Below the pieces are notes generated by a model. It was not told where the DNA came from. It saw only the letters and a program-made list of their open reading frames with translations, and did no database searches. From Chthonomonas calidirosea T49 (lineage in GTDB: Bacteria > Armatimonadota > Chthonomonadetes > Chthonomonadales > Chthonomonadaceae), in NCBI RefSeq assembly GCF_000427095.1, contig NC_021487.1, forward strand, positions 1,928,674-1,992,673: DNA of 64,000 bases, given 5' to 3'. The position numbers and the translations under genes were made by a program. Shown here one piece after another: positions 22,323-30,669 of the stretch (position 1 is the first letter of the stretch; each line of letters opens with the position of its first letter).

Positions 22323-22352
22323 TTGACATTTCAAAGGTTCACCGTGTATAAT
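22323..22352 (+). promoter_or_regulatory. Promoter of the T-box/ThrC-like transcript
   Basis: Full consensus TTGACA (22323-22328) and TATAAT (22347-22352) with an 18-bp spacer. Transcription should start near 22359, at the 5' edge of the T-box leader. Confidence 0.85.
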
Positions 22353-22358
22353 CTACGT

Positions 22359-22685
22359 CCGACATAGTTGGAAAGTGGCAAGGCGAAGAGAAGGTGGAGT
22401 AAGCAGGCGGCGCGGTAACAGCGAGCCGGGTTGGTGGAAGCCGGTACAAGCGAACCTGCTGAAATGGCCTTTGAGCCGCCTTTTCGAAAAGCACTTCGTT
22501 GGCTGAGTAGGGAAGGCCGGGGGGCTCCCGTTACAGGGCCAGGGTGTACGCGTTCGTAAGAGCGTCGTTGCACCCGCCGAGGCCGCAACCGTGAGGTTGT
22601 GGCGAAAACAGGTGGGACCACGAAGGCTTGAGCCTCTCGTCCTGTGTGCCTGCAATGCGGGCGCGCCGGTCGAGAGGCTTTTTGA
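22359..22685 (+). ncRNA. T-box leader (tRNA-sensing riboswitch) with transcription terminator
   Basis: Stem I: basal AAGGCG/CGCCTT (22380-22385 with 22477-22482), AAGG/CCTT, then a specifier loop with AGTA (22398-22401) opposite GAA (22461-22463), closed by AGCAGG/CCTGCT. The distal part has the conserved AGCGAGCC and GGTTGGTGGAAGCC elements. After GAA the codon reads ATG (22464-22466), which by the usual register is a Met specifier. The antiterminator T-box sequence is AGGTGGGACCACG (22610-22622), whose TGGN has N = G. The terminator is AGCCTCTCG/CGAGAGGCT (22631-22639 with 22671-22679) followed by T5. The class is certain by motif; the amino acid is uncertain because G would not pair with the A73 usual for tRNA-Met. 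Confidence 0.9.
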
Positions 22686-22742: not shown

Positions 22743-23999
22743 ATGTCTGCCAAAACGTTGGGAATGCAGTGTCGCGAGTGTGGAAAAGAGTATCCGCTTG
22801 CGCCTGTGCATGTTTGTGAGCTCTGTTTTGGACCCCTCGAAGTTAAACTGAACTGGGAGCTTATTGAAAAAAGGGTGACCCGCGAATCGATCGCCGCCGG
22901 CCCTCCCTCCATGTGGCGCTACTGGGACCTCCTTCCGGTAGAAGGTCCGCCTACCGTCGGCAAAAACGTGGGTTGGACGCCCTTGGTGAAGGCGGAACGG
23001 CTCGGACGCGAACTCGGCCTCAATAACCTCTATGTGAAGAACGATGCTGTGAACCATCCTACGCTCTCTTTTAAAGATAGAGTGGTGGCCGTGGCTCTCA
23101 CCAAAGCCCGCGAGTTTGGCTACGACACGGTGGCCTGTGCCTCCACAGGAAACCTTGCAAACTCGGTAGCTGCCCACGCTGCCGAAGGAGGCTTTCGCTC
23201 TTATATCTTCATTCCAGCCGATCTGGAACAGGGCAAAGTGGTCGGTACCCTCATCTATGGAACTAATGTGCTCGCGGTATCTGGCTGCTACGATGAGGTG
23301 AATCGCCTCTGCGCCGAAGCGGGCGACCGCTATGGCTGGGGCTTTGTGAACATTAACCTTCGGCCTTTCTACGGAGATGGCTCCAAAACCTATGGCTATG
23401 AGATCGCCGAACAGTTGGGCTGGAGAGCGCCCGACCACGTGATCGTGCCCTGCGCCGGAGGCTCGTTGATCAGCAAAATTTATAAGGGCCTGAAGGAGTT
23501 GGAGCGCCTTGGACTTCTCGACGGGCCGGTGAATACCCGTATGTACGCCGCTCAGGCCACCGGCTGCTCCCCCATCACCACGGCCATAAAAACCGAAGCG
23601 GCCGTGTTTCGCCCACAACGCCCCAACACTATCGCCCGCTCCATCGCCATTGGGAACCCCGCAGATGGCTATACGGCCATAGAAACCGTGCGAAAATCCG
23701 GCGGGTGGGCCGAAGACGTTACGGATGAGGAGGTCGTAGAGGGCATTCGCCTGCTAGCGCGAACCGAAGGGATCTTCACCGAAACCGCCGGCGGCGTTAC
23801 CGTTTCCGTGACGAAAAAACTGGCCGAACAGGGCCGATTCGGCAAAGACGACGTGGTGGTGATCGCCATCACCGGCAACGGCCTTAAAACCCAGGAGGCC
23901 GTGATGGGACGGGTAGGACATACCATCCCCATCGAGCCAAACCTTAACTCGCTCGAAGCCGCCCTGAAAACGGAAAAGCTGTTGGCGACCTCTTCGTGA
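22743..23999 (+). CDS. Threonine-synthase-like PLP enzyme with N-terminal zinc ribbon; possible sulfur amino acid synthase
   Basis: 418 aa; GAGGAGG lies upstream. The zinc ribbon has C10, C13, C25 and C28. The fold-type II PLP domain has Lys111 in HPTLSFKDRVVAVAL, STGNLANSVAAHAA, the phosphate loop VPCAGGSL, and TETAGGVT. By sequence it would be called threonine synthase (ThrC: O-phosphohomoserine to threonine). However it is followed directly by a ThiS/MoaD-like carrier ending in GG and then by a double-NIL protein, and it is controlled by a T-box that reads as Met. This raises the alternative that the enzyme accepts sulfur from a carrier thiocarboxylate to form homocysteine or cysteine, as CysM does with CysO. 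Family assignment is firm; the reaction is open. Confidence 0.88.
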   Translation: MSAKTLGMQCRECGKEYPLAPVHVCELCFGPLEVKLNWELIEKRVTRESIAAGPPSMWRYWDLLPVEGPPTVGKNVGWTPLVKAERLGRELGLNNLYVKNDAVNHPTLSFKDRVVAVALTKAREFGYDTVACASTGNLANSVAAHAAEGGFRSYIFIPADLEQGKVVGTLIYGTNVLAVSGCYDEVNRLCAEAGDRYGWGFVNINLRPFYGDGSKTYGYEIAEQLGWRAPDHVIVPCAGGSLISKIYKGLKELERLGLLDGPVNTRMYAAQATGCSPITTAIKTEAAVFRPQRPNTIARSIAIGNPADGYTAIETVRKSGGWAEDVTDEEVVEGIRLLARTEGIFTETAGGVTVSVTKKLAEQGRFGKDDVVVIAITGNGLKTQEAVMGRVGHTIPIEPNLNSLEAALKTEKLLATSS

Positions 24000-24107: not shown

Positions 24108-24383
24108 ATGCCTGTAACCGTTCTAATACCGACACCGTTGCGTCGCTATACCGGCGATGTGGATACGGTGACAGCGGCCCCCGGAACCATCGCGACACTT
24201 ATCGAAGACCTGGAAAGGCAGTTTCCAGGCATCTCCGAGCGACTCGTAGATGAAAACGGAGAGATTCGCCGCTTTGTAAATATCTATGTTAACGAGGAGG
24301 ATGTTCGCTTCCTAAAAGGGAAAGATACTCCCGTAAAGGATGGCGACTCCGTCTCCATCGTCCCGGCCATCGCCGGAGGCTAG
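24108..24383 (+). CDS. ThiS/MoaD-like sulfur-carrier protein ending in Gly-Gly
   Basis: 91 aa from ATG 24108 with AAGGAG upstream; the frame is open back to 24039 without a better site. It is a ubiquitin-like beta-grasp: MPVTVLIPTPLRRYTGD, central ERLVDENGEIRRFVNIYVN, and C-terminus DGDSVSIVPAIAGG. The terminal Gly-Gly is what E1-like enzymes adenylate and convert to a thiocarboxylate. It is distinct from the ThiS encoded at 29616-29809. Related carriers work with cysteine synthase (CysO) or in methionine synthesis (HcyS). Next to the ThrC-like enzyme it is a likely sulfur donor for it. No ThiF/MoeB-like activating enzyme is in the window. Confidence 0.88.
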   Translation: MPVTVLIPTPLRRYTGDVDTVTAAPGTIATLIEDLERQFPGISERLVDENGEIRRFVNIYVNEEDVRFLKGKDTPVKDGDSVSIVPAIAGG

Positions 24384-24449: not shown

Positions 24450-25085
24450 ATGGGTGTTATCGAGTTCGTACAGAACTATGACGATCTGTCTACAGATCAA
24501 GGTTTTCAGTTCCGATTCTACTGCGACCACTGTCGCAACGGCTTTATGTCCACGTTCGAGCCCAACAAGCTCGGCCTGATGGGTGATGCGCTGCGGGCCG
24601 CAGGAGGCTTTTTGGGCGGGTTCTTGAGCCGCGCCGGCGAATCAGCCTACGATATCCAGCGCGCCGTGGGCGGCAAGGCGCACGATGCCGCGCTGCAAAC
24701 AGCTGTTCAAGAGATCAAACCGCTCTTTAACCAGTGCCGACGTTGTGGCCGATGGGTTTGCAAAGAGGTCTGCTGGAATGAAGCTCGTGGGCTTTGCAAG
24801 CAGTGCGCCCCCGTAGAGGAAGAGGAACTAGCCAGCGCACAGGCTCAGGTGGTAAAAGAGCAGATATACTCCAAGCTTCAAGAGAAAGACCTTACCACTG
24901 AGATCAACCTCACCGCCCACGCCACCGTTACCTGCCCCCACTGCGGCTCCGCCGTGCAGGGCGGTAAGTTCTGCCCGGAATGCGGCAAACCATTAAGCAC
25001 ACAAACAACCTGCCCGCAGTGCCATGCCCAAATTCCGGAAGGAGCGAAGTTCTGCACACAGTGCGGCACGCGCATCGGAACGTAG
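24450..25085 (+). CDS. Zinc-ribbon protein of unknown function
   Basis: 211 aa. The N-terminal part (about 20-125) has CDHC, later CRRCGRWVCKEVCW and CKQC, consistent with an unusual treble-clef or zinc site. Between them is a glycine-rich helical stretch (RAAGGFLGGFLSRAGESA). The C-terminal 60 residues contain two rubredoxin-like ribbons, CPHCGSAVQGGKFCPECG and CPQCHAQIPEGAKFCTQCG. AGGAGG lies just before the start. The role is unknown; its position between the sulfur carrier and the NIL protein may be incidental. Confidence 0.75.
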   Translation: MGVIEFVQNYDDLSTDQGFQFRFYCDHCRNGFMSTFEPNKLGLMGDALRAAGGFLGGFLSRAGESAYDIQRAVGGKAHDAALQTAVQEIKPLFNQCRRCGRWVCKEVCWNEARGLCKQCAPVEEEELASAQAQVVKEQIYSKLQEKDLTTEINLTAHATVTCPHCGSAVQGGKFCPECGKPLSTQTTCPQCHAQIPEGAKFCTQCGTRIGT

Positions 25086-25132: not shown

Positions 25133-25669
25133 ATGCCTGTTATTACCGTGAATCTCACGGCCACCGGAGAGATGGCCCAACGTCCCTTACTGTGGCGACT
25201 TGGGCGTCTCTTCCATGTGGTTACCCATATCCGACGAGCGCGGGTAAGTGAAGAGGTTGCCTGCCTTACGGTAGATATAGAAGGCTCTCAAAATGAGATT
25301 ACCCAGGCTACGGCCTACCTCCATGCGCTGGGGCTTCTGCCTGGAGACAGTGAAACGAATCTGCCGGTTCCCTCCACCCTGCCACAACCACCGGAAACCA
25401 CCGTGTCGCAATCCGTAACCACTCGCGTGCGCATTACCACGGTAACCGCAGAGCAGAATCGTGCCCCCTTGCTCTATCGAGTTGGGAAAGACTTCGATGT
25501 GGTGGTGAACATCGTGCGGGCCGCCTTCGACGAGGAAGATGGAGGGTATTTTGAAGTGGATCTTTCCGGCCCGCTCAGTGAGGTGCAACGCGCCATCGCT
25601 TACCTACACACGACTGGTGTGCAAGTCTACCCTTACCAACGCTCGGTAACCGACTACAGCAACCTATAG
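25133..25669 (+). CDS. Protein of two tandem NIL domains
   Basis: 178 aa. Residues 1-80 (RPLLWRLGRLFHVVTHIRRA, then LTVDIEGSQNEITQATAYLHALGL) and 98-170 (APLLYRVGKDFDVVVNIVRA, then FEVDLSGPLSEVQRAIAYLHTTGVQV) repeat the same pattern, separated by a Pro/Thr linker. The pattern is that of the NIL domain (ferredoxin-like fold) found at the C-terminus of the methionine importer ATPase MetN and in NIL-ferredoxins tied to homocysteine synthesis. It is therefore a candidate ligand sensor or sulfur-metabolism accessory protein. It ends against thiD of the converging thiamine operon. Confidence 0.8.
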   Translation: MPVITVNLTATGEMAQRPLLWRLGRLFHVVTHIRRARVSEEVACLTVDIEGSQNEITQATAYLHALGLLPGDSETNLPVPSTLPQPPETTVSQSVTTRVRITTVTAEQNRAPLLYRVGKDFDVVVNIVRAAFDEEDGGYFEVDLSGPLSEVQRAIAYLHTTGVQVYPYQRSVTDYSNL

Positions 25670-30463: not shown

Positions 30464-30495
30464 CCATGAAAACAACGGATAAGAGATGCTTTTAC

Positions 30496-30588
30496 CATGG
30501 CTTCCCTCCGCCGGTACTAACCGGATCAGGTTCCAAGGGTTGCCGGGGTCACCCGGCTCTCAGCTCCTCTTTGGAGCACCCCCTAGCC
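30496..30588 (-). ncRNA. TPP riboswitch (THI element)
   Basis: Read on the minus strand it has GGGGGTGCT at the 5' side, the pyrimidine-sensing GAGCTGAGA, then ACCC-TTGG-AACCTGATC-CGG-TTAGTACCGGCG and AGGGAA. These are the conserved blocks of the thiamine pyrophosphate aptamer. It lies 72 nt upstream of thiE and controls the thiE-S-G-O-C-D operon. Confidence 0.96.
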
Positions 30589-30669
30589 CTCTATTTATTT
30601 ATAAATGCCTGGTTTCGACCCCGCTCATATGGGAGAGCCTGAAAAGCGGTGTCTTCACCACATACATCT

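Follow-up and report, generated by a model that had tools for sequence, protein, structure and literature searches.

A T-box leader and four genes on the forward strand form the locus of interest within the window, a stretch of 64,000 nucleotides from the single-contig genome (3,437,861 bases) of a member of the Chthonomonadaceae, phylum Armatimonadota. The first gene (22743..23999) encodes a PLP enzyme of 418 amino acids with an N-terminal Cys motif, which scores as a threonine synthase (hereafter ThrC-like) and is predicted from orthology and gene context to be a homocysteine synthase. It is followed by ORFs encoding a CysO-type ThiS/MoaD sulfur carrier of 91 amino acids (24108..24383), a double zinc-ribbon protein (24450..25085; PF12773, E 2e-10), which is probably co-transcribed, and a protein with two NIL domains (25133..25669; PF09383, E 4.4e-21). 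The carrier belongs to the ThiS/MoaD fold family (PF02597, E 2.6e-18) and ends with AIAGG, i.e., with a C-terminal Gly-Gly; its best solved relatives are CysO (3dwg_C, E 1.1e-25), which is the best match, and 4n6e_B. Just upstream of the leader a sigma-70-type promoter with the elements TTGACA and TATAAT, separated by 18 nt, was detected (22323..22352, forward strand), which agrees with the consensus at 12 of 12 positions (shuffle mean 0.1). Elsewhere in the window, a TPP riboswitch (30486-30594, minus strand) precedes a cluster of thiamine genes on the same strand.

The leader (22377..22647, forward strand) comprises all elements from stem I to the antiterminator and matches the T-box model RF00230 over its full length (model positions 1-219) with 90.0 bits and an E-value of 2e-20 in cmscan. 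This is 3 bits below the gathering cut-off of 93 bits, and a default Rfam scan therefore misses it. Orthologous leaders exceed the cut-off (105.7 bits in G031, 98.5 in G055, 98.2 in G040 and 97.0 in G039), and the match is thus not due to chance. A previous sequence-only reading had recognized the T-box by AGUA (22398-22401) on the 5' side of the specifier loop, GAA (22461-22463) opposite to it, an AUG immediately 3' of GAA (22464..22466) and UGGG in the bulge (22613-22616). Direct reading places all four motifs there, and the search with the covariance model, which had been proposed as a check, agrees. Further elements are the stem IIA/B region with the F-box CCGUUA (22517..22533), which was assigned from the alignment and further leaders and belongs to a block with hardly any variation in families f1, f2, f3 and f9, and the stem III hairpin GCCGCAACC / GGTTGTGGC (22582..22603). 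The block CCGGGGGGCTCCCGTTACAGGG.TAGGG, which spans stem IIA/B with the F-box (22517-22547; orthologs L081-L099 and L165-L171), is almost invariant among Met T-boxes across families and is not shared by the Val and Leu T-boxes of the same genome.

The antiterminator (22608..22645) is composed of helix A1 (22608-22612/22641-22645), the bulge UGGGACC (22613-22619) and helix A2 (22620-22622/22638-22640). Compensatory changes preserve A1 across the orthologs, e.g., ACAGG/CCTGT, TCAGG/CCTGA and CAAGG/CCTTG. The variable base of the UGGN motif (22616) is G in this leader, A in most members of the family and U elsewhere. The 3' strand of the antiterminator overlaps with a competing terminator hairpin, AGCCTCTCG ... 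CGAGAGGCT, which is followed by a T run (22631..22683), so that the two structures share bases and exclude each other. An automatic terminator scan found none, the loop of the hairpin at 22631-22683 being longer than the scan permits. The leader belongs to a known class, and its bulge base is unusual.

Orthologs of the ThrC-like enzyme were identified in 20 of 31 genomes of the order and in 50 of 291 genomes of the phylum. The enzyme belongs to PF00291 and lies above the curated cut-off of TIGR00260 (283.7 vs. 167.1 bits) but below that of NF006050 (281.7 vs. 303). A canonical ThrC, which is also present in most relatives, is encoded elsewhere in the genome (L160); it reaches 481.7 bits to 1uim, compared with 180 for the ThrC-like paralog, and both proteins share 38% identity. 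The segments NSVNPxRLxGQKT and GNAGNIT of canonical ThrC read NINLRPFYGDGSKT and CAGGSLIS in the ThrC-like enzyme. No canonical ThrC was found in G054 (98% complete) and G038, and in these two genomes the ThrC-like enzyme may make threonine. In G054 (L100) the T-box is lost and a terminator-like remnant is kept; the enzyme may have been recruited for threonine.

Gene neighborhoods were compared for 49 tabulated loci of the wider family, which belong to Armatimonadota, Nitrospirae, Nitrospinota, Rokubacteria, Omnitrophica, Methylomirabilota, Deltaproteobacteria and others. In 47 of them a CysO-type carrier adjoins the ThrC-like gene, often near NIL or CysK genes. In five loci of Methylomirabilota (L254, L261, L266, L279 and L300) the ThrC-like/MoaD operon is preceded by a SAM-I riboswitch (77-87 bits); in L254 the riboswitch (358-479) is followed by genes for NIL, ThrC-like and MoaD proteins in this order. 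Among the Armatimonadota orthologs without a T-box, no upstream SAM riboswitch reached the gathering score. In family f11 (L173 and L174) the place of a T-box leader is taken by a CysK-like gene, which ends immediately 5' of the ThrC-like gene.

The distribution of the operon was compared with that of known enzymes of homocysteine synthesis. MetX (homoserine acetyltransferase) is encoded in 9 of the 11 genomes of the order which lack the operon and in only one of the 20 which carry it (p 2.5e-5, a value that overstates independence because the inverse distribution tracks lineage, all genomes with MetX belonging to family f2). The one genome with both MetX and the operon is G031. Homologs of MetY length, which were inferred from match length and in three cases checked against TIGR01326, occur in 7 of 11 genomes without and in 2 of 20 with the operon. 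A joint test on PF01053 (MetY/MetB/MetC) was too coarse for this promiscuous family, and MetX gave a far cleaner pattern. The genome studied here encodes a cystathionine-synthase-like PF01053 protein (L336) below the family cut-off, and another route to homocysteine may therefore exist in this organism.

Which codon is read by the leader was deduced from the position of the specifier. Two more T-boxes of the genome precede valS (GAA-C-GUC, bulge UGGU) and ilvB (GAA-A-CUC, bulge UGGU), and in both of them one spacer base separates GAA from the codon. The leader of the ThrC-like gene is one base short at this site, so that AUG and UGG are both candidate codons. Among the orthologous leaders, 28 have a readable bulge and 27 a readable specifier loop, and all 27, from six families (f1, f2, f3, f8, f9 and f10), carry AUG. 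Several of them (L096, L098, L099, L166 and L169-L172) have the standard one-base spacer, e.g., GAA-A-AUG in L096 and GAA-C-AUG in L098 and L172. The base after AUG varies between G, A and U, and neither the -1 nor the +1 frame is conserved. Since AUG is invariant and is found in some leaders behind the standard spacer, the sensed codon is Met and not Thr or Trp, in agreement with the register proposed from the single sequence. That the spare base was lost after the codon and that the leader reads GAA-A-UGG for Trp is hardly credible: the specifier loop is indeed one base shorter than in the Val and Leu boxes, which makes UGG alignable at the codon position, but the same frame in relatives is UGA or UGU (GAAATGACT, GAAATGTTC and GAAATGATC), and the G73 of tRNA-Trp is no partner for the bulge G. 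The Trp register was rejected, as its frame is not conserved in the comparative alignment. We also consider it very unlikely that the leader senses a tRNA with U73 (Thr, Gly or Cys) by a shifted register and that the gene encodes an ordinary threonine synthase. U73 does occur in the genome's tRNAs for Thr, Gly and Cys and could form a wobble pair with G, or pair with the relatives' A, and the protein passes the thrC model TIGR00260. However, no frame of the specifier loop reads ACN, GGN or UGY, AUG is invariant across six families with variable neighboring frames, a canonical ThrC is present elsewhere in the genome, and the context with carrier, NIL protein and SAM riboswitch favors methionine. 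The suggestion of a shifted register for tRNA-Thr or tRNA-Gly and the search for an ACN specifier thus ended without a matching codon in any frame, and this register is largely refuted. A Met T-box in front of thrC had been regarded as unexpected unless the gene serves methionine, and that it does is well supported by the second, canonical ThrC, the carrier and NIL context, the SAM-I riboswitch and the MetX pattern. The latter two also bear on a further alternative, namely that the operon serves cysteine synthesis or general sulfur transfer and that the Met T-box reflects the sulfur status indirectly. Mycobacterial CysO is the closest solved relative of the carrier, and CysK is often encoded nearby in other phyla; yet two unrelated methionine sensors, the AUG T-box and the SAM-I riboswitch, control the operon in different phyla and the operon replaces MetX, which makes this explanation improbable. 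Because of the two different methionine sensors and the replacement of MetX, synthesis of homocysteine from O-phosphohomoserine appears to be the best reading.

With the Met register in place, the tRNA that is bound depends on the bulge base. The Met T-boxes of family f1 (n = 14) carry A in 12 cases, U in one and G only in this genome, and C in none. Outside f1, A was found in two f9 leaders and U in all other leaders of f2, f3, f8, f9 and f10. As a control, all 21 Leu and Val T-boxes of family f1 have U, and the difference to the Met T-boxes of f1 has a Fisher p of 9e-9, computed without regard to shared descent. Two valS T-boxes elsewhere in the phylum (L057 and L068) have C at this position. 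According to TBDB, the variable base of UGGN usually pairs with the discriminator of the cognate tRNA, with wobble pairs allowed (PMC7778990). The sequence-only reading had noticed that G does not fit the A73 it took to be usual for tRNA-Met. This holds for the elongator tRNA-Met, which has A73 in every genome examined, and the conflict is real and specific to the Met T-boxes. It does not hold for the initiator tRNA: C73 was read in 25 of 26 readable copies from the order and also in the sampled genomes of f8, f9 and f10. The single initiator tRNA of the genome studied here (L044:92-167) shares this C73, to which the bulge G is complementary in the Watson-Crick sense. Bacterial initiator tRNAs usually have A73. 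The initiator tRNAs of the phylum (L101-L127, L192, L195, L207, L209, L210 and the one of this genome) have C73 and usually U72 opposite U1 or C1, and the unusual C73 may affect formylation and recognition by MetRS. In this genome the initiator ends in U72-C73-CCA, five bases to which the UGGGA of the leader is fully complementary.

As the bulge G is complementary to C73 and not to the elongator's A73, the initiator is a plausible preferred ligand of the T-box in this genome. It is plausible only, because the A that is common in the f1 relatives pairs with neither tRNA-Met, and the match of G and C73 could be due to chance, with odds of about one in four. Initiator sensing in a Met T-box has an experimentally established precedent in Staphylococcus aureus, where the leader binds the initiator, and the elongator only weakly (PMC3771891). 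As a family-wide rule it is unsupported, since C73 occurs throughout the sampled families, in which the bulge varies between U, A and G. We give an even chance to the opposite choice, which competes with the initiator part of our reading only: the elongator tRNA-Met would be sensed with the bulge base unpaired to A73 in f1, and the G would be drift. A73 matches the bulge U of f2, f3, f8, f10 and most f9 leaders, so that elongator sensing is probably ancestral, and the A of most f1 members pairs with neither tRNA, which would be expected if this pair had become dispensable. On the other hand, U is kept in all 21 Leu and Val T-boxes examined of f1, which indicates that the position is generally constrained, and the Met boxes of f1 converge on A (12 of 14) instead of being scattered, and none has C.

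Taken together, we assign a probability of roughly 0.7 to the reading that a Met T-box attenuates a homocysteine operon, in which a ThrC-like enzyme acts together with a sulfur carrier and for which the initiator is a plausible preferred ligand. The sequences themselves establish the architecture of the T-box, its conserved AUG, the neighboring genes, the co-occurrence pattern and the bases of the tRNAs. Regulation in vivo would proceed as follows. Uncharged tRNA-Met would pair with the AUG specifier by its CAU anticodon and with the UGGN bulge by its NCCA end, which would stabilize the antiterminator against the terminator (22631-22683) and relieve transcription attenuation. The operon with the ThrC-like enzyme, the CysO-type carrier, the zinc-ribbon protein and the NIL-domain protein would thereby be switched on. 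The enzyme is predicted to exchange the phosphate of O-phosphohomoserine for sulfur, which is probably supplied as the thiocarboxylate of the carrier, and homocysteine for methionine would be the most likely product of the operon. From the gene context, the riboswitches and the replacement of MetX we infer a synthesis of homocysteine from activated homoserine with a protein thiocarboxylate. The findings suggest that the gene is a mislabelled threonine synthase that helps to make homocysteine.

The codon of the T-box represents a functional label on a gene family which scores as threonine synthase in many phyla and, if our inference holds, would point to an additional route to homocysteine. At least one such route is still undiscovered, in bacteria that lack all known routes (PMC5764234). 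Our literature search found no paper on a ThrC homolog and a sulfur carrier in methionine synthesis; subscription papers were outside its scope and novelty is not proven by it. We put forward only tentatively, and as somewhat less probable than its negation, that the ThrC-like/CysO-type pair represents an undescribed, widespread homocysteine route in which O-phosphohomoserine and a protein thiocarboxylate are used by a fold-type-II enzyme, that a Met T-box (Armatimonadota) or a SAM-I riboswitch (Methylomirabilota) controls it, and that the T-box described here is tuned to the initiator by the G-C73 pair. The genome also offers a rare case in which the base read by a T-box is not the same in the initiator and the elongator tRNA-Met. 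Which of the two a T-box senses has so far been shown in S. aureus, with no known basis, and could here be addressed by swapping single bases.

Several known systems resemble the operon in parts. Canonical ThrC (TIGR00260, 1uim) has its family model in common with the ThrC-like enzyme, and the substrate is likely the same. The protein thiocarboxylate pathway of methionine synthesis belongs to Wolinella succinogenes, where a MetY-type enzyme (PF01053) is used. In both cases a small ThiS/MoaD-like carrier is proposed as sulfur donor to a homocysteine-making PLP enzyme, but the enzyme described here is ThrC-like (PF00291, fold type II) and its substrate is probably O-phosphohomoserine. The name protein thiocarboxylate pathway is used in PMC5764234. 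The mycobacterial cysteine synthase CysO-CysM (3dwg) likewise combines a CysO-type carrier with a fold-type-II PLP partner; here a ThrC-like enzyme takes the place of CysM, and the regulation favors methionine. In the DUF39/NIL-ferredoxin/COG2122 pathway a NIL-domain protein is also tied to homocysteine formation (PMC5764234), whereas the four genes of our cluster do not include DUF39 and the NIL protein is devoid of a ferredoxin domain. With the Met T-box of the S. aureus metICFE-mdh operon (PMC3771891) the leader shares the AUG specifier, the terminator/antiterminator switch and the position upstream of methionine biosynthesis genes. It differs in the controlled ThrC-like/CysO-type operon, the bulge G and the C73 of the initiator, and initiator sensing is here a base-pairing argument.
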